Shown here piece by piece: positions 9,538 to 44,687 of a stretch of 50,215 nucleotides of DNA; positions within the stretch are counted from its first letter, which is position 1; each line of letters opens with the position of its first letter. Source of the DNA: Synergistes sp. (GTDB taxonomy: Bacteria; Synergistota; Synergistia; Synergistales; Synergistaceae); NCBI GenBank assembly GCA_017537925.1, contig JAFYJW010000003.1, forward strand, positions 1 through 50,215. Direction: 5' to 3'. A program made the translations under genes and the position numbers. The notes below the pieces were generated by a model. That model worked only from the letters and a program-made list of their open reading frames with translations. It made no database searches and was not told where the DNA came from.

Positions 9538-9633
9538 GGGTAAAGACCCCTCCTCGTATGATTGCGCTGCAAAAGCGCAGTGAATAAATTGCAGCCCGCG
9601 GAATGAATAAAGAGAGGAAAACCAGGCATTTTC

Positions 9634-9716
9634 CCGTTCCCTTTTCCAAACGCGGGAGACGGTCCGGTTTCCCGGAACCGCCCTAACGACCGCTCCCCAT
9701 AGCTGTATGCCTTAGG
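9634..9716 (-). ncRNA. Structured leader RNA of tupA, candidate Moco/tungsten-cofactor riboswitch (copy 1)
   Basis: The tupA leader (about 9781 down to 9541) folds into several hairpins. One is TCCGG-GAAA-CCGGA with a GNRA tetraloop. It shares an ordered series of blocks with 9972-10056: CCTAA, CTATGG, AGGG, GGGAAAC, CTCCC and GAACGG. Its position before a tungstate transporter fits the Moco RNA class known upstream of molybdenum and tungsten genes. I cannot run a covariance search, so the class is inference. Nearby arms GCACAG/CTGTGC and GCAGTAT/ATACTGC lie between the promoter and this core. Confidence 0.45.
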
Positions 9717-9787
9717 GAATGCGGTTTCAGGGACGCATGCAGTATGCAGACATACTGCGGCACAGCCAGGCAAACTGTGCTTGCCAT

Positions 9788-9943: not shown

Positions 9944-9971
9944 TGCAGAGCACGGCCCAATAAATTTTCAC

Positions 9972-10056
9972 GCCGTTCTCCTTTCCGAAAGGGAGGCCGC
10001 CGCGTTTCCCCGGCGACCCTGTCGGCGGAAGGACCATAGTTTAAAAACCTTTAGGT
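9972..10056 (-). ncRNA. Structured RNA element, copy 2
   Basis: Read on the minus strand, this contains CCTAAAGG, CTATGG, CCGCCG, GGGGAAACG, CGGCGG, CTCCC and GGAGAACGGC in order. These match blocks of the tupA leader (copy 1). The CCGCCG/CGGCGG and CTCC/GGAG arms form two stems. Its own predicted promoter (10075-10102) and terminator (9918-9943) would define an RNA of about 150 bases. No gene lies between that terminator and the tupA promoter. Confidence 0.45.
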
Positions 10057-10074
10057 CCAGCCGCTCGGAGAATC

Positions 10075-10102
10075 ATTATCATATATTGCCGTTATCCTAC
10101 AA
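10075..10102 (-). promoter_or_regulatory. Predicted promoter for structured element copy 2
   Basis: On the minus strand, TTGTAG (10102-10097), a 16-base spacer and GATAAT (10080-10075). Confidence 0.4.
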
Positions 10103-34988: not shown

Positions 34989-35018
34989 TTGACGAGCAGA
35001 AGAGAATTAGCGTATTAT
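34989..35018 (+). promoter_or_regulatory. Promoter for the mutA-mutB-meaB operon
   Basis: TTGACG (34989-34994), 18-base spacer, TATTAT (35013-35018). Transcription would begin near 35025, just before the cobalamin riboswitch. Confidence 0.65.
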
Positions 35019-35044
35019 TACTGCGTATAAAAAATTATATAACG

Positions 35045-35185
35045 CTGCAGAAGCTGGGAATCAGGTGCAATTCCTGAACGGCCCCGCCACTGTAAGCCGC
35101 GACGATATCGCATATGCCACTGAGTTTTTCGGGAAGGCGCGATGGAGGATGAACGGCAAGCCAGGATACCGCTCTGCGCGAAGTT
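35045..35185 (+). ncRNA. Cobalamin riboswitch upstream of methylmalonyl-CoA mutase
   Basis: Core elements occur in order: GGTGCAATTCC, CGGCCCCGCCACTGTAA (35078-35095), GCCACTG (35115-35121), GGGAAGGCGCGATGGA (35130-35146) and the B12 box AAGCCAGGATACCGC (35158-35172). A terminator follows at 35251-35278. GGGCGGGGGTTT (35202-35213) could pair with the terminator's left arm as an antiterminator. Confidence 0.92.
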
Positions 35186-35250
35186 GCAGCAATTCCTGCG
35201 CGGGCGGGGGTTTCTTGATGCGTTTAACGCAACTTTCAGCCACAGCAACT

Positions 35251-35278
35251 AAAACCGCCCGCAGGGCGGTTTTTTTTC
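35251..35278 (+). terminator. Riboswitch-linked terminator before mutA
   Basis: AAAACCGCCC-GCA-GGGCGGTTTTTTTT forms a strong terminator 35 bases before mutA, so the riboswitch most likely controls transcription. Confidence 0.9.
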
Positions 35279-35312
35279 GCCCGCCAATTTTTTAGCGAAG
35301 GGAAGCATTCAT

Positions 35313-37508
35313 ATGAGCGAAACAGAGGTGAAGACGAGCCTGATCCCGCCGGTCTCTTTCGAAGAGTTCGCGCCTCCTTCACGCGAGGGATGGCACGATG
35401 AAGCGGTAGCGGCTCTGAAAGGCGCGCCTTTTGAAAAACGTATGTACACTCCTACATACGAAGGCATAACGCTTGAACCCATCTATACTCTGGCAGACCT
35501 CGAAGGGCTGCAGGGCATCGACGGTCTGCCCGGGGAAGCGCCTTTCCTGCGCGGTACGGAAAGCGCCGGCTACATGGCTTCTCCATGGAAGATAGCGCAG
35601 GGTACGGCAAGCGTTCTGCCTGGCGAAGCCAACAAAGCGGTAAAGCACGAGCTCGCAAAAGGAGCGACCGTGCTGAATTTTGAGCTCGACAAATGCACTA
35701 AATGCGGCTTAGACCCTGACAGCTCCCTTTTCCAAGGCGACTACAGGGGAGTTTCTCTTTCGACGCTGAAAGACGCGGACGAACTGCTCGACGGCCTTGA
35801 TTTCACAAAGACCCCGCTCCATATATACGCAGGCGCGTCCGCAGTGCCGGTGCTTGCGCTTATAGCGGCGCGCTCGCGCGCACACGGTGAAGGGGAAAAG
35901 TTTAAAGAAGCCGTCGGATGCATCGGCGCAGATCCTTTGGGAGAGCTTGCGGAAAACGGAGAACTTCCGCTCCCGCTCGATGAGCTGTACGATGAAATGG
36001 CTCTTGCGATAAAGTGGGCGGAAGAGAACGCGCCGAAGCTTAAGACGATACTCGTAAGAGGAGACGTCTACCACAACGGCGGAGCTTCCGCGACACAGGA
36101 AACAGGATATGCGATGAGCGCTGCCGCAGCATATATAAGGGCTATGCAGATCCGCGGCGTGGCGCCTGAAACAACAGTCAAACATATCAAGTTCAGCTTC
36201 TCGCTGGGCACTAACTTCTTCATGGAGATAGCGCGTCTGCGCGCCGCCAGAACGGTATGGGCGCAGATAACGGAAGCGTTCGGGATGGACGAAGAAAAAT
36301 ACGGCAAAATAGACGTCTACGCCCGGACGTCACGCTTTACTCCTACCGTTTACGACCCGTATGTCAACATACTCCGCTCAACGACGCAGGCTTTCTCTGG
36401 CGCGGTCGGCGGAGTGGGCGAGATGCAGGTTACCTGCTTCGACGACGCAGTGCGCCCGGGCGGCGAATTGTCGCAGCGCATCGCAAGAAACATCCAGATA
36501 ATGCTGCAGACCGAATTCGATATGCTGCAGCCTGTCGACCCGGCAGGCGGTTCATGGTATGTAGAAAACCTCACCGCAAAATGCGCCGAGGCGATACTCG
36601 CCGTCATACAGAAGGTCGAAAGCAACGGCGGCATGTACAGCGCGCTTAAATCCGCCGCAGTGCAGGATGACATAGAAAAAACGCTGAAAGAGCGCCTGAA
36701 GAACCTTGCCACACGCAAAGACCGCGCGGTGGGCACGAATATGTACCCGAACACGCTGGAAAAGCCTCTTGATCAAACTTCGCCCAAAGCAGAGACGCTG
36801 TACGCCGAAAGAGCGAAGGCTCTCTCCGATTTCCGGAGCAAAGCCGACGCCGGGCGCGTTGCGGAGTCTCTTGAGAAGGTCCTTCAGAGCGTGCATGACG
36901 GAGACGCGAAGTTCATTGACGCGGTAATAGAAGCCTGCACGGCCGGAGCGACGACAGGCGATGTAAGAAAAGCGCTCAACGACGGCTTCAGCGGCAGCGA
37001 AAGCGTAAAAGCGATAGGGCTGCACCGCTGGACGGAAGAGTTCGAGGAACTGCGCCGCAGGACCGAGGAATTCACTGAACGCACCGGCAAAAGCATCCGC
37101 ATATTCCTCGCCAACATGGGACCGATCCCGCAGCACAAGGCGCGCGCCGATTTCAGCACCGGCTTTATGGAAGTCGCACACTTTGAGGTGCTGAAAAACA
37201 ACGGCTTCCCGACTCCTGAAGAGGCCGTTAAGGCCGCCGTCGAATCGGGTGCAAATGTAACGGTGATCTGCTCCACGGACGACACATATCCGGAGCTCGT
37301 GCCGGCCGTAGCGAGCGGCATAAAGAAAGCGGCTCCCGATATGCGGATCATTCTTGCCGGAGCTCCGGCTCCCGAGTTCAAGGATCAGTACCTTGAAGCA
37401 GGCGTGGACGATTTCATACATGTACGGGCAAACTGCTACGCAATACTGAGATCCATACAGGACAGCGCAATAAAAGCAGCGGAGTCCGACGGAGGTGAGA
37501 AAGCATAA
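35313..37508 (+). CDS. mutA: Methylmalonyl-CoA mutase small (beta) subunit
   Basis: 731 residues. The non-catalytic partner of MutB in interconversion of succinyl-CoA and methylmalonyl-CoA. It has the TIM-barrel region and a C-terminal flavodoxin-like domain, but the B12-ligating Asp-x-His-x2-Gly is absent. The equivalent place reads [15 protein letters not shown]. This is normal for the small subunit of heterodimeric mutases, so the gene is not decayed. AAGGGAAG lies before ATG 35313. The stop shares one base with the mutB ATG. Control comes from the cobalamin riboswitch and terminator directly upstream. Confidence 0.95.
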
Positions 37509-39709
37509 TGCCGTTCATAAATCCCGACCTTACAAAGCTCAAGCTGAATATGGAGCCGAAACACAAGATCACTTTCGAAGAGTGGAAACGCCGCATAGAG
37601 AAAGAAACGGGAAAATCCTTTGAGAGCCTGCTTCACCGCACGATGGAGCAGATAGACGTAGCGCCGCTTTACACAAGAAGCGCTTACGACGGCATGAACC
37701 ACCTTGCCTATATGCCTGGTATCCCGCCGTTCCTGCGCGGGCCGTATCCCACTATGTACGTCACCCGTCCGTGGACCGTGCGTCAGTACGCCGGATTCTC
37801 TACGGCCGAGGAAAGCAACGCTTTCTACCGCCGCAACCTTGCAGCCGGACAGAAAGGTCTTTCGATAGCATTTGACCTTGCCACGCACCGCGGCTACGAC
37901 TCAGACCACCCGCGCGTCGTGGGAGACGTCGGAAAGGCCGGAGTCGCCGTCGACTCCATCCTTGACATGGAGATACTCTTCTCGGGCATTCCGCTTGGTC
38001 AGATGTCGGTCTCGATGACGATGAACGGCGCGGTGCTTCCCGTTCTTGCGTTCTACATCGTCGCGGCCGAAGAGCAGGGCGTCGACAAATCAGTGCTGTC
38101 GGGCACGATTCAGAACGACATACTGAAAGAGTTCATGGTGCGCAACACATATATCTACCCGCCGGCGCCGTCGATGAGGATAATAGGCGACATCTTCTCC
38201 TACACGTCGCGCAACATGCCGAAATTCAACAGCATAAGCATTTCAGGCTACCATATGCAGGAAGCGGGAGCCACTGCCGACATAGAGCTGGGCTACACGC
38301 TCGCCGACGGCCTCGAATATATACGCACCGGCATCCAGGCGGGGCTTTCGGTCGACGATTTCGCGCCGCGCCTTTCATTCTTCTGGGCGATCGGAAAGAA
38401 TTACTTCATGGAAGTCGCCAAGATGCGCGCCGGACGCATGCTGTGGGCCAAGATAGTCAAGCAGTTCGGTCCAAAGAAGGCCAAGTCGATGGCGCTGCGC
38501 ACGCACTCGCAGACGTCCGGATGGAGCCTCACCGCACAGGATCCGTTCAACAACGTCGCGCGCACCTGCGTCGAAGCTATGGCGGCGGCGCTCGGCCACA
38601 CTCAGTCGCTGCACACCAACGCTCTTGACGAGGCCATAGCGCTGCCTACGGACTTCTCGGCGCGCATAGCCCGCAACACGCAGCTCTACATACAGGATGA
38701 AACGAGCGTCTGCAAGGTCATCGACCCGTGGGGCGGCTCATATTACGTCGAAGCGCTGACAGACGAGCTGATACGCCGCGCCTGGGCCCATATACAGGAA
38801 GTCGAATCGCTCGGCGGCATGTCCAAAGCCATCGAAACAGGACTGCCGAAGATGCGCATCGAGGAAGCGGCGGCACGCAGGCAGGCGCGCATTGACTCCG
38901 GAAGCGAAAAGATAATCGGGGTCAACGCGATGCAGCTTGAACAGGAAGACCCGATAGACATACTGGAGGTCGACAACACGGCGGTCCGCGAGGCTCAGAT
39001 AGCGCGTCTTGCCAAGCTGCGCGCGAACAGGAACCAGGAAGAAGTTGACAAGTGGCTGGACGCTATAACCAAATCAGTGGACACCGGCGAAGGCAACCTG
39101 CTCGAGCTTGCGGTGGAAGCAGCGCGTGCCCGTGCCAGCCTTGGCGAGATATCATACGCGATAGAAAAAGTTACCGGAAGGCATAAGGCAGTGATACGTT
39201 CAATATCAGGAGTTTACAGCAGCGAATTCGCGGAAGATGAAATAATAGCGGAAGTCCGCAAAATGACGGACGAATTCGAAGAGCGCGAAGGACGCCGTCC
39301 GCGCATAATGGTCGCCAAGATGGGACAGGACGGACACGACAGAGGCGCCAAGGTCGTAGCTACGGCCTACGCGGATATGGGCTTCGACGTGGACATCGGA
39401 CCGCTCTTCCAGACGCCGGAAGAGACCGCGCAGGACGCGGTGGACAACGACGTGCACATCGTAGGGATGAGCTCGCTGGCCGCGGGACACAAGACGCTTC
39501 TGCCGCAGCTCGTGGAAGAGCTCAAAAAGCGCGGAAGGGGCGACATCATGGTCGTAGCCGGCGGCGTCATACCGGCCCAGGACTATCAGTTCCTGTACGA
39601 TCACGGCGCGTCCGCGATATTCGGCCCCGGTACGGTGATTCCGGTCGCCGCGAAGGAAATGCTCACGATTCTGAACAAGCGCCTCGCCGCGGCGGAAGCC
39701 GGTGCCTAA
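37508..39709 (+). CDS. mutB: Methylmalonyl-CoA mutase large (alpha) subunit, catalytic
   Basis: 733 residues, the adenosylcobalamin-binding catalytic subunit. The substrate barrel fills residues 1 to about 560, with YPTMY near 80 and [11 protein letters not shown] near 330. The C-terminal B12 domain has D608-G-H610-D-R-G613, where His610 is the lower cobalt ligand, then [11 protein letters not shown] and GGVIP. Numbering matches the Propionibacterium enzyme closely. In a fermenter it would serve the succinate-propionate route or catabolism of branched amino acids. It sits between mutA and meaB with one-base spacing. Confidence 0.97.
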
Positions 39710-39710
39710 A

Positions 39711-40874
39711 ATGGAAGAAGGATCCCTCCGCCAGCCGCAGAACACGCGTCCGGAATGGCAGCCCGAGGGCGCAGGGTCCGAGTATGCCTGCTCAGTTATG
39801 CCCGGGATTCCTCTTTCCCAGGACAGCTGCAATACACGGGTGCTGAACGAGACCAAAGCGGCGCAGAGGAAAGTTCTTTCTGCGGATGATTACGCGGAAG
39901 GGATCATTTCAGGGGACAGAGTGATGCTGTCGCGCGCGATCACTGTAATAGAAAGCAACGCGCCGAAGCATTTTGAGCTGGGTCAGGAAATAATACAGAA
40001 AATACTCCCCCGTACAGGCGGAGCCATGCGCATAGGCATCACGGGAGTGCCGGGCGCCGGAAAAAGTACTTTTATCGAAGCGTTCGGCACATACCTGGCC
40101 GACTGCGGGCACAAAGTGGCGGTGCTTGCCGTCGACCCTTCGAGTTCGCTGACAAAAGGCAGCATACTCGGAGACAAGACGCGCATGGAAAATCTGGCGC
40201 GGCAGAAAAACGCCTTTATAAGGCCGTCTCCTTCCGGCGGATCGCTGGGCGGCGTCACAAGAAAAAGCAGGGAAACGATGCTGCTCTGCGAAGCCGCCGG
40301 ATATGACACGATACTTGTGGAAACGGTAGGCGTCGGACAGAGCGAGACGATGGTGCGCCAGATGGTGGATTATTTTTTAGTCATCGTCATAACGGGCGCG
40401 GGCGACGAACTTCAGGGCATAAAAAAAGGAATCATCGAGCTTGCCGACAGCATACTCGTGAACAAAGCCGACGGCGACAACAAGATGAAAGCCCTGATGG
40501 CACGCGCAGATTACGAGCAGATACTCCACTACCTGCGGCAGCCGACAGAAGGCTGGCAAACGAAGGCATACACCTGCTCGTCGATAACAGGCGAGGGTAT
40601 ACCGGAGATGTGGAGCGTAATAGAGGATTTCCGCGATAACGTTTCAAAGTCGGGAATTCTCATAAAGCGGCGCAAGGAACAGACGATCGAATGGGTTCGC
40701 GCAATGGCTGCCGAATATCTTCAGAATCGGATAGCCCGCTGTGACGAGCTCACAAAGCAAAGGGAAGAGATCGAGAGGAGGGTGATCGAGGGGGCAATTA
40801 CTCCGACGACTGCGGCCAAAGAGCTGACAGAGTCAATGGAAAAACTGCTCTTCACAAACGCAGACGAAACATAA
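39711..40874 (+). CDS. meaB: MeaB/ArgK-type GTPase, methylmalonyl-CoA mutase chaperone
   Basis: A G3E-family GTPase that protects and reloads the mutase with cobalamin. GITGVPGAGKSTF is Walker A, AVDPSSSLTKGSILGDKTRM is the family block, ETVGVGQSE is switch II and VNKADGD is the base-recognition motif. From ATG 39711 it is 387 residues, about 50-60 longer at the N terminus than most. The extra segment (about residues 1-50) is polar, Gln/Pro/Ser-rich and probably flexible. GTG 39702, overlapping mutB, is an alternative start. It ends the operon, and a hairpin (40911-40950) follows. Confidence 0.93.
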   Translation: MEEGSLRQPQNTRPEWQPEGAGSEYACSVMPGIPLSQDSCNTRVLNETKAAQRKVLSADDYAEGIISGDRVMLSRAITVIESNAPKHFELGQEIIQKILPRTGGAMRIGITGVPGAGKSTFIEAFGTYLADCGHKVAVLAVDPSSSLTKGSILGDKTRMENLARQKNAFIRPSPSGGSLGGVTRKSRETMLLCEAAGYDTILVETVGVGQSETMVRQMVDYFLVIVITGAGDELQGIKKGIIELADSILVNKADGDNKMKALMARADYEQILHYLRQPTEGWQTKAYTCSSITGEGIPEMWSVIEDFRDNVSKSGILIKRRKEQTIEWVRAMAAEYLQNRIARCDELTKQREEIERRVIEGAITPTTAAKELTESMEKLLFTNADET

Positions 40875-41083: not shown

Positions 41084-41112
41084 TTGACAAATAACAGAGG
41101 TAATGATATTTT
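41084..41112 (+). promoter_or_regulatory. Promoter for the BtuB-like receptor operon
   Basis: A perfect TTGACA (41084-41089), a 17-base spacer and TATTTT (41107-41112). Confidence 0.65.
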
Positions 41113-41114
41113 CT

Positions 41115-41270
41115 GGTAGAAATAGATTCCCCGCTGAGTACGGGAATCCGGTTAAAAGCCGGAACGGCCCCTGCCGCCGTGATCGGGACGAAAGCGCATG
41201 ATGCCATTGCATAAAGCGAGAAGGCGCGCTGTTAGGATGACCGAGAGTCGGAAAACCTGCTGCGGAGGAC
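41115..41270 (+). ncRNA. Cobalamin riboswitch upstream of the TonB-dependent receptor
   Basis: Conserved pieces occur in order: GGGAATCCGGT (41142-41152), AAAAGCCGGAACGGCCCCTGCCGCC, GATGCCATTGC (41199-41210), GAAGGCGCGCT and the B12 box GAGTCGGAAAACCTGC (41245-41260). There is no T-run afterwards. A GCGCGC hairpin (41280-41296) and about 110 more bases lead to the start codon, so translational control is more likely than transcription termination. Confidence 0.88.
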
Positions 41271-41378
41271 CTGGCTTAGCGCGCATGGGGCGCGCGACGT
41301 CGGACAGCCGCTGGGATGATATGCGGCAGACGGTGCAAGCCCCTTCCGCGAATACCGGAATTCACGGAGGTCATTCCA

Positions 41379-43364
41379 TTGCTGCACAAAGCGCACGTCA
41401 TTCCACTTTTCATCGCACTGCCGATCTTCCTTGCGATCTCGCTCTGCACCGGCAAAAGTGAAGCCGCGGATATCCAGCTGCCGGAGGAGGAAGTAACTGC
41501 GGCGGCAGGAGAAGACAGTACGCTCTTATCCCCCGGCACTGTCTCGGTCGTGAGACCCGACGAAACAGAGGGGGAACATAAAAACCTGCCGGAGCTGCTG
41601 AAAGAGGTTCCGGGACTCCACGTGATCGAAAGCAAAGGACGCGGTGCCTATACAGTCGCTTCAGTGCGCGGCAGCACAGCCGCGGAAGTATCCGTCTTCG
41701 TTGACGGCGTACTTATGAATTTAGGCGGAGAAGCCGCCGTAGACCTCTCGGCTATCCCGACTGCAAACGTCGACAGAATAGAAATATACCGCGGCTACAT
41801 ACCGGCGCGCTTTGCCGGAGCGTCGATGGGCGGCGTTATAAACATCATCACCAAATCGCCTGAGGAGCCGGGCGGCTCTGTTTCTGTCGGCGCCGGATCT
41901 TACGGCAAATTCAACACAAGTCTCTCCTACGCGATGCCGCTCGGCGGAGGCTCCTTCTTCATAGGGGCGAATTACGAGCGCACCGACGGCGATTTCGAAT
42001 ATTGGAATGACAACAACACCCCGTACACGCCGGGGGACGATTATACTGCAAAACGCCAGAACAACGGCTACAAGAATTCAGATATCCTGCTCAAATGGAA
42101 AAATGACGACTGGTCGGCGCGCTTTGGCTGGAAAAGAAACGACCGCGACCTTCCATACGGCGCGCCGGGCGCAGACAAGCCAGACAGCCCCAAAGGCGCG
42201 CATCAGGATACGAATCAGACGGACTTCTCCGTTTCACGCCGTTTCAAAAGCGGCTCCGTCGACTGGGGAGTCAGAGCCGAATATCTGCACCAGAGCAAAA
42301 AATATGACGATGAAACAAACGTGATAGGCGGATGGGGCGAGCAGCACAACAAATATACGACCGACAGGTACGGTTTTGCGGCTGACGGCTCCTGGCGGCT
42401 CGGAGAGAACCATTTCATCGAATTCCTTGCCGATTATTCAAGAGAGAAGCTTAAAGCGGACGGAGACATAGTAACGACCTTCGGCGGGACCTCCGATTTC
42501 AGCAGGGAGGCCGCCGACGTACAGATTCAGGATACGATAAGCTTAAGCCGCGACGGCACCTTCACCTTCACGCCGATAGCACGCTGGAATATGTGGAACG
42601 GCGACGGCAAGTTTTCGATCGGAGCCGCCCTTGCGAAGGAGCTGCCGCACGGCTGGACGATAAGGGCTTCCGGAGGAAGCTACAACAGAGCGCCGAACCT
42701 CTACGAACTCTACGGCGACGGCGCGTTCGTCAGGCCTAACAGGAACCTTGACTGGGAGAAAGGTACGCAGTGGGATTTAGGCGTATCATGGAAGGGAACG
42801 CTTGCAAAGGCTGAAACGTCCGCATCTCTGACATACTTCGGACGCCGTTCTGACGACCTTATCGAATTCATAATGACAAGCCCGCGTTACGGGCAGTACA
42901 TAAACATAGGAAAGGCCCGCGTAAACGGCATTGAGTTCGAGGGACGCGCCATATGGGACAAATGGGACCTGAAGCTCTCGGCAACATGGACCGACGCCAA
43001 AAACGCCACCCCGGACTACCGCGAGGGGCAGCCTCTGCCTAACAGGCCGGAATGGGAGGGCTATCTGCGCCTTTCGAGAAAGTTCCTGAAAGACGATGCG
43101 GCGTCTGCCTTTGCCGAGCTGCGCTACATCGGTGAAAACTATTACGACACCGCGGGCTCGATCAAAATGGACAATCTCTTCACGGTAGGCCTCGGACTGC
43201 ACTGGCGCATAAAAGAAAGGCTCAACCTGACGGTCGGGGTCGACGACATATTCAACGAGTCGCCCGATATAAAAATGTACTCGGTCAAAAACGGACCGGC
43301 GAGAACGATGTGGTATCCGCTTCAGGGACGCACATTCTACGCGACTTTGACATGGGAATTTTAA
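41379..43364 (+). CDS. btuB: TonB-dependent outer-membrane receptor, BtuB-like (cobalamin uptake)
   Basis: A 22-stranded beta-barrel receptor for corrinoids. The TTG at 41379 is the start because GGAGG lies exactly 8 bases upstream and a signal peptide follows (LLHKAHVIPLF, hydrophobic core, then SEAADIQ). It has 661 residues. The plug domain holds VPGLHVIESKGRGAYTVASV, VFVDGVLMN and IEIYRGYIPARFAGASMGGVINIITK. The barrel repeats end in TLTWEF with the terminal Phe needed for outer-membrane insertion. The riboswitch upstream is the main reason to call cobalamin as substrate. A Synerg-CTERM protein follows after 45 bases. No btuCDF or tonB genes are present in the window. Confidence 0.88.
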   Translation: MLHKAHVIPLFIALPIFLAISLCTGKSEAADIQLPEEEVTAAAGEDSTLLSPGTVSVVRPDETEGEHKNLPELLKEVPGLHVIESKGRGAYTVASVRGSTAAEVSVFVDGVLMNLGGEAAVDLSAIPTANVDRIEIYRGYIPARFAGASMGGVINIITKSPEEPGGSVSVGAGSYGKFNTSLSYAMPLGGGSFFIGANYERTDGDFEYWNDNNTPYTPGDDYTAKRQNNGYKNSDILLKWKNDDWSARFGWKRNDRDLPYGAPGADKPDSPKGAHQDTNQTDFSVSRRFKSGSVDWGVRAEYLHQSKKYDDETNVIGGWGEQHNKYTTDRYGFAADGSWRLGENHFIEFLADYSREKLKADGDIVTTFGGTSDFSREAADVQIQDTISLSRDGTFTFTPIARWNMWNGDGKFSIGAALAKELPHGWTIRASGGSYNRAPNLYELYGDGAFVRPNRNLDWEKGTQWDLGVSWKGTLAKAETSASLTYFGRRSDDLIEFIMTSPRYGQYINIGKARVNGIEFEGRAIWDKWDLKLSATWTDAKNATPDYREGQPLPNRPEWEGYLRLSRKFLKDDAASAFAELRYIGENYYDTAGSIKMDNLFTVGLGLHWRIKERLNLTVGVDDIFNESPDIKMYSVKNGPARTMWYPLQGRTFYATLTWEF

Positions 43365-43409
43365 AGCGGTATAAACCGTTTCAAAATAAAAACACAGGAG
43401 GGGTATCAA

Positions 43410-44687
43410 ATGCTTAAGAAACGCGGAATATTGGCACTGGTCCTGGCGCTGTGCATGGCTCTGGCGGTATCGCCTGCCATGGCGGACATCCTCTACACAG
43501 CCTCGACTAACTGGAACACAGACAGGTTCGGCATAATCAGGGGCGACGAAGAACCGACGAAAGACGTCGTCACGAACCTCGGCGGAGACGCGGGCTCCGG
43601 AGTATTCTCGTTCAAGAACGCCGATAAAGAAGCGCGCGTGGCAGTAAGCCAGTACGCCTACGCAGGCAACGACACAGTGTGGTTCTACGATCCTGAGACG
43701 ACAGACTGGTCGGCGCCGCTGCAGGAAGCCGTTTCGCCCGTAAAAAACGTACACCACATGGTGGCCGAAGGTAACTATCTCTATGCGGCAGGCTACGATG
43801 ACGCGTCTGTCGGCCGTTTCGATATGACGTCCGATGCTTTCACGCCTGATGACAAGACCTTTACCTGCACGCCTGACGAGCCGGGATACACTGCGCACGC
43901 CGAACGCCTGGCGGCGTACAACGGCAGCGTTTACGCGATATTCACCGCCAGCAGCGGAAGCTACCCGAACTACGTATACGCCTATCACAAGATCGTAAAA
44001 CTCAAAGAAGACCTGACGGAAGAGGCAAGCGCTGCTCTGAAAGGCAAGAACCTTGACGGCGCAAACGTCGGTTCGACTCTGCAGATAGGAAAAGACCTCT
44101 ACGTAGCCTCTCTCGGCGGCAGCCAGGATACCTCCGGACTCTTCAATTCCGACTCCATGATCGAAAAGGTGGACCTTGAGACACTGACCTCCGAGACGCT
44201 CATCACAGCCGCAGACGCCGCTGAGAAAGATAAGGAGTGGGGATACAACTTCTACGGCCTCGCCAAAGACGGCGCAAAGATATACGTGATGGCTGCCTGC
44301 TGGAACGGCAACTGGCCGGAATCGGGAACCGACAATGTCCAGATCTATGAGACGAGCGCTGAGAAGCTCGCAGCCGGCGACCTTGGCGAAAAGATAGCTA
44401 CGCTCAGCACTAAGACAGGCTACAGCCTCGGCATCGAATACGACAGTGAGTCGAAGCTGCTCTGGGTATCCGCGGGCGACAGCATTTACAAATACGACGG
44501 AACAAATTTCACGGAATTTGACAAAACGGCACTCGGCGGAGACATGGCCAAGTTCGCGGCGCTCAAGGCTTCCGAGGTAACGCCTCCTGCCGACGACAAG
44601 AGCAGCGGCGGATGCAACAGCGGCTTCGGCGCACTGGCTCTTCTTGCGCTCCTGCCGCTTATAGCGTCAAAACGCGGCAAAAAATAA
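43410..44687 (+). CDS. Secreted beta-propeller-like protein with Synerg-CTERM sorting signal
   Basis: 425 residues. The N-terminal signal peptide runs MLKKRG, hydrophobic core, then AMAD. The middle has repeated blade-like units ending in aromatic/Asp turns (VWFYDPETTDW, VGRFDMTSD, LYVASLGG, KIYVMAACWNGNW, LWVSAGDSIYKYDG), suggesting a YncE/YVTN-type beta-propeller. The C terminus is Gly400-Gly401-Cys402, a short spacer, a hydrophobic helix and KRGKK. This is the Synerg-CTERM surface-sorting signal known from Synergistota. AGGAGGGG precedes the ATG. It lies 45 bases after the riboswitch-controlled receptor gene, so it is probably co-regulated by cobalamin. By analogy with Bacteroides BtuG it may capture B12 at the cell surface. 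This role is inference, and the anchoring signal is clear. Confidence 0.82.
   Translation: MLKKRGILALVLALCMALAVSPAMADILYTASTNWNTDRFGIIRGDEEPTKDVVTNLGGDAGSGVFSFKNADKEARVAVSQYAYAGNDTVWFYDPETTDWSAPLQEAVSPVKNVHHMVAEGNYLYAAGYDDASVGRFDMTSDAFTPDDKTFTCTPDEPGYTAHAERLAAYNGSVYAIFTASSGSYPNYVYAYHKIVKLKEDLTEEASAALKGKNLDGANVGSTLQIGKDLYVASLGGSQDTSGLFNSDSMIEKVDLETLTSETLITAADAAEKDKEWGYNFYGLAKDGAKIYVMAACWNGNWPESGTDNVQIYETSAEKLAAGDLGEKIATLSTKTGYSLGIEYDSESKLLWVSAGDSIYKYDGTNFTEFDKTALGGDMAKFAALKASEVTPPADDKSSGGCNSGFGALALLALLPLIASKRGKK

Follow-up and report, generated by a model that had tools for sequence, protein, structure and literature searches.

The window analysed here, a 50,215-nucleotide stretch of a Synergistes sp. 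genome (contig JAFYJW010000003.1, positions 1 to 50,215), contains on its forward strand a cobalamin riboswitch followed by the genes of a BtuB-like TonB-dependent receptor and of a secreted protein predicted to fold as a beta-propeller (table 1). The aptamer match is full-length (model positions 1-189 of 189) and scores 72.6 bits (gathering score 31.5; E 4.4e-16), and exactly 45 nt (43365-43409) separate the receptor stop from the start of the propeller gene. The leader 3' of the aptamer was found to fold no better than shuffled sequences (z -0.54), and therefore no expression platform is proposed. The original prediction, made from sequence alone, had named the riboswitch, the receptor beginning at the TTG codon, the 45-base spacing and the secreted protein. 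Each of these claims held and the observation is confirmed as a whole, with the aptamer beginning 18 nt ahead of position 41115, where the predicted locus had been made to start.

Table 1. Features of the receptor-propeller locus, in window coordinates.
Feature	Position	Strand	Basis
Cobalamin riboswitch aptamer, upstream of the receptor-propeller pair	41097..41278	+	RF00174
Shine-Dalgarno-like GGAGGT ahead of TTG 41379	41366..41371	+	sequence
BtuB-like TonB-dependent outer-membrane receptor (plug and barrel)	41379..43364	+	PF07715, PF00593, TIGR01779, E. coli BtuB
Shine-Dalgarno AGGAGG ahead of ATG 43410	43396..43401	+	sequence
BtuG-like secreted beta-propeller (predicted) with Synerg-CTERM anchor signal	43410..44687	+	sequence, TIGR04564, AlphaFold2, structural neighbours
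N-terminal signal peptide, codons 1-24	43410..43481	+	by eye from sequence; cleavage site inferred
Seven-bladed beta-propeller domain (predicted), residues 25-382	43482..44555	+	AlphaFold2 model
Synerg-CTERM: GGC motif (Cys codon 44613-44615), hydrophobic helix, basic tail	44601..44681	+	TIGR04564

The receptor contains a Plug domain (PF07715, 5.8e-17) and a TonB_dep_Rec barrel (PF00593, 4.5e-38), and the alternative to its TTG start is a longer frame from ATG 41316. The top-scoring NCBIfam model is TIGR01779 (TonB-B12, 3.9e-49) and the best match among PDB sequences is E. coli BtuB (5e-27), with which the receptor shares the TonB-dependent plug-and-barrel organization. The score remains under the TIGR01779 equivalog cut-off (167.7 bits against 599.7), yet no other family scores better, with NCBIfam models of siderophore receptors nearly as high. 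A further difference is that the E. coli system has no capture lid.

Conservation and genomic context of the pair

In a sample of 188 Synergistota genomes, searches starting from the propeller and from the receptor converged on the same loci. With profiles derived from the initial loci, and counting from both the propeller and the receptor side, 63 adjacent receptor-propeller pairs were found in 51 genomes, 21 with the receptor first and 42 with the propeller first, so that the pairing is far beyond chance. Seen from the receptor, a propeller lies no more than 300 nt away for 63 of 75 homologues. Among the other 12, most are frameshifted or located at a contig end, two (loci L093 and L103) appear to be truly without a partner, and a Fretibacterium propeller lies 1.1 kb from a receptor homologue, outside the 300 nt limit. 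RF00174 was detected upstream of the operon start within 1 kb in 40, and within 8 kb in 45, of the 54 testable pairs, i.e. those with at least 600 nt of upstream sequence. By chance, about 0.13% of genes would be preceded by a same-strand riboswitch at a distance of up to 1 kb, as derived from the five riboswitches of the 1.98-Mb genome to which the window belongs. A survey of this kind had been called for by the original prediction, which would have been refuted by the absence of a conserved linkage to B12 riboswitches; the linkage was found to be strongly conserved.

The neighbouring genes of relatives include other components of B12 transport. At L041 the riboswitch operon encodes, in this order, a BtuF-like protein, a BtuD/FecE-like ATPase, a BtuC-like permease, a protein of cluster c4, a TonB protein, the propeller and the receptor. 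At L046 cluster c4 is represented by a TolQ/ExbB-like protein, and the same transport genes form a separate operon that has its own riboswitch and diverges from the receptor-propeller pair. In the genome of the window, BtuF/BtuC/BtuD-like genes are found behind two other cobalamin riboswitches, one of these loci also encoding a CbiK-like cobaltochelatase and a CbiL-like methyltransferase, and another cobalamin riboswitch precedes an ABC importer of the nickel/cobalt type.

Other features of these regions may be recorded separately. A second cobalamin riboswitch of the window (35012-35191) lies directly before methylmalonyl-CoA mutase genes, in a block (35012-40874) formed by the riboswitch, the genes of this B12-dependent enzyme and a MeaB-like GTPase. 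The arrangement is odd, since a switch of this class usually shuts expression down when B12 is abundant. In L053, L056 and L064, too, the mutase-MeaB block lies next to the receptor-propeller pair. Two tandem molybdenum-cofactor riboswitches (RF01055) are present on the minus strand of the window at 9623-9744 and 9962-10082. In L058-L059 (Fretibacterium fastidiosum), L054, L055 and L057 several propeller paralogues cluster around the B12 locus, along with large Synerg-CTERM or GLUG-motif proteins, perhaps accessory surface proteins. The propellers at L065:7252-9762 and L056:6988-8760, and those of L063 and L067, have an additional stretch of approximately 200 to 450 residues ahead of the tail; in the two that were scanned (L065 and L056) no Pfam family was matched.

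Propeller fold, relation to BtuG and anchoring

In Bacteroides, BtuG binds B12 very tightly and the BtuB-BtuG pair has been likened to a pedal bin with its lid (PMC6143338, PMC10404256). The Synergistota arrangement resembles it in being a riboswitch locus where the receptor adjoins a secreted propeller with, by prediction, the same seven blades. The window protein (425 residues, with a signal peptide recognized from its sequence) matches no Pfam family. Its AlphaFold2 model, obtained with seven sequences, is a seven-bladed propeller (pLDDT 85.5, pTM 0.88), closed by the C-terminal strand according to our own blade assignment. With VIA-align the top PDB entries are BtuG1 (8blw_B; Z 25.5, rmsd 2.9, 294 residues aligned) and BtuG2 (8ptf; 25.4), followed among generic propellers by the YVTN propeller 1l0q (24.8), to be considered a tie under the rule that values within 1 Z are not distinguished. 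Foldseek alone placed 1jmx_B first by E-value, but with a TM of 0.35, and BtuG2 (8bn0) second with a TM of 0.61. A replicate model of the F. fastidiosum homologue is also an all-beta propeller (pLDDT 81.0), and in this case BtuG fills the first eleven places (Z 25.3-23.2), the first other propeller being twelfth (23.1).

At the sequence level, earlier profiles of the family matched BtuG chains among PDB sequences at 2.3e-8 and 5.5e-8, behind designed kelch repeats. When the deep-branching members were included, the three best PDB sequences were BtuG 8ptf, 8ptd and 8blw_B (2.4e-11, 2.5e-11 and 5.6e-10), with the next match at 2e-7. The similarity is strongest over about one blade (profile positions 159-236), which contains the conserved N and GG of the family. 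The BtuG sequence family PF16819 gave no match at the locus, and across the phylum only weak and scattered ones; the ones inspected proved largely to be BamB-like propellers and had no cobalamin riboswitch. A single-sequence phmmer search with the window protein did not return BtuG, and neither form of the criterion for calling a sequence BtuG is satisfied, whether by PF16819 or, following the 2018 definition, by similarity at BlastP level. The profile-level similarity is probably best read as remote homology rather than BtuG family membership. Of the five invariant positions, four (D64, N89, N190 and G212, numbered in the mature domain) lie in loops of the top face under our blade assignment. 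On average, a higher conservation of the ligand face is not supported, the predicted top-face loops having a mean of 0.383 against 0.414 for the bottom-face ones (p 0.96). No relatives were found in viral contigs.

The C-terminal region of the window protein scores 37.3 bits with TIGR04564 (NCBIfam cut-off 22.5), and 42.4 bits in the search of its own genome, where six Synerg-CTERM proteins in all, one CPBP-type protease and two secretins were found. No lipobox Cys is present at its N-terminus. The propellers of families f1 and f4-f7 likewise end in a G-rich motif, a Cys, a helix and a basic tail, the few exceptions having extended or cut ends. The deepest-branching family, f11 (four genomes, L104-L107, outside the order of the window) has a paired propeller lacking this tail and carrying an N-terminal LWGC lipobox, so that its members are predicted lipoproteins as is BtuG. 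A cobalamin riboswitch lies just upstream in the three f11 loci with upstream sequence, and the f11 receptors group together in the receptor tree, apart from the rest. No Bacteroidetes lipoprotein export signal was seen. On the simplest reading, the propeller must be anchored, and the means of anchoring changed while the pair was kept, in a direction that remains unproven. Processing and surface anchoring of Synerg-CTERM proteins by a route like that of MYXO-CTERM and myxosortase, described for Myxococcus (PMC11980579), would by analogy fit the single CPBP protease and the two secretins. The two signals share a C-terminal Cys motif, a transmembrane helix and a basic tail, but they are distinct families of distinct phyla, and the processing of Synerg-CTERM remains inferred; no paper mentioning it was found in the open-licence literature searched.

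Proposed function and rival explanations

The pair is likely to be a riboswitch-controlled module for the capture and uptake of B12 or other corrinoids. The riboswitch, the receptor, the propeller fold (as predicted by a model), BtuG as nearest relative, the conserved linkage and the sorting tail all have computed support. In the proposed mechanism, low cellular B12 would allow the riboswitch to permit expression of receptor and propeller together. The propeller would leave the cytoplasm by the Sec route and be held at the cell surface by its C-terminal Synerg-CTERM signal, the helix of which would probably be cleaved off and the Cys lipidated. It would then capture corrinoids over the mouth of the receptor and hand them over for TonB-energized passage through the outer membrane, and BtuF/BtuCD would complete uptake. 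The ligand, the surface exposure, the lid-like contact and the lipid are inferred only, in the absence of binding data. As for the original prediction, its propeller, guessed from repeats, was borne out by two predicted models, both with BtuG first in the structural comparison it had proposed, and a non-propeller fold would have refuted it. Its identification of the Gly-Gly-Cys, helix and basic tail as Synerg-CTERM held, and the 'different sorting system' it invoked holds for the window, with the refinement that anchoring varies within the phylum. Its interpretation as a 'parallel' B12-capture protein is supported by computation, corrinoid binding and surface location being still inferred, and is refined in that the family is more probably a remote BtuG homologue than merely a parallel invention.

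Against the capture reading stand the tie with 1l0q, the absence of higher average conservation on the ligand face, the receptor score under the BtuB cut-off, the missing PF16819 match and the confinement of the BtuG profile similarity mainly to one blade. Some of these would suit a B12 uptake locus in which the propeller does not bind the ligand and acts as a structural or stabilizing partner of the receptor, or as an adaptor for protein-protein contacts at the surface: propellers are general interaction folds, the generic Z value almost equals that of BtuG for the window model, and the ligand face is no more conserved on average. This explanation is considered unlikely, BtuG being first by both structure and sequence profile and the propeller having been paired over the long term with receptor and riboswitch.

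That the pair imports another substrate, e.g. a cobalt chelate or a siderophore, that happens to be B12-regulated could be argued from the sub-threshold TonB-B12 score, the nearly equivalent siderophore-receptor models and the cobalamin riboswitch that precedes the nickel/cobalt-type importer. It is very improbable given that TonB-B12 is the best curated family and BtuB the best PDB sequence for the receptor, and that operons of relatives include BtuF-, BtuD- and BtuC-like genes. The presence of Synerg-CTERM proteins elsewhere in the genome leaves room for a generic surface propeller lying by chance beside a B12 receptor, a possibility practically ruled out by the number of pairs and genomes, the occurrence of both gene orders and the riboswitches of most pairs, set against their low expected frequency. 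The capture-and-uptake module remains the preferred reading.

Wexler et al. 2018 (PMC6143338) found no BtuG homologues outside Bacteroidetes, and exclusivity to that group, either of BtuG or of lipoprotein-capped TonB transporters, is stated in papers of 2018 and 2023; none of the BtuG papers in the open-licence literature searched places BtuG in Synergistota. SusCD-type transporters are similar in that a surface protein caps a TonB-dependent channel. SusD lacks the propeller fold, and SusCD takes up glycans. The Synergistota pair is, pending binding data, a well-supported candidate exception to the Bacteroidetes-only distribution. It differs from the Bacteroides system in phylum, in a sequence too distant for PF16819 or single-sequence searches and, for the window protein and most relatives, in the C-terminal Cys-containing anchor; f11 shares the N-terminal lipobox. 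A bolder reading, to which we give a slight preference over its negation, is that B12 transporters capped by surface propellers exist outside Bacteroidota, with the Synergistota lid derived from BtuG or sister to it. On this reading, the anchor would have switched within the phylum between lipoprotein attachment at the N-terminus and a Cys sorting signal at the C-terminus, so that the lid would be hinged on its receptor by the other terminus.

The family thus offers a directly testable counter-example to the Bacteroidetes-only claims, and a likely function, with B12 binding still inferred, for a family of Synerg-CTERM proteins without a Pfam match. Since BtuG already serves to remove corrinoids from samples (PMC11287211), proteins related to it may also find use as reagents. 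For Synerg-CTERM, a signal still poorly understood, the family would supply a substrate with an assayable activity, and the phylum may provide a natural experiment in which a transporter lid tolerates anchoring from either end.
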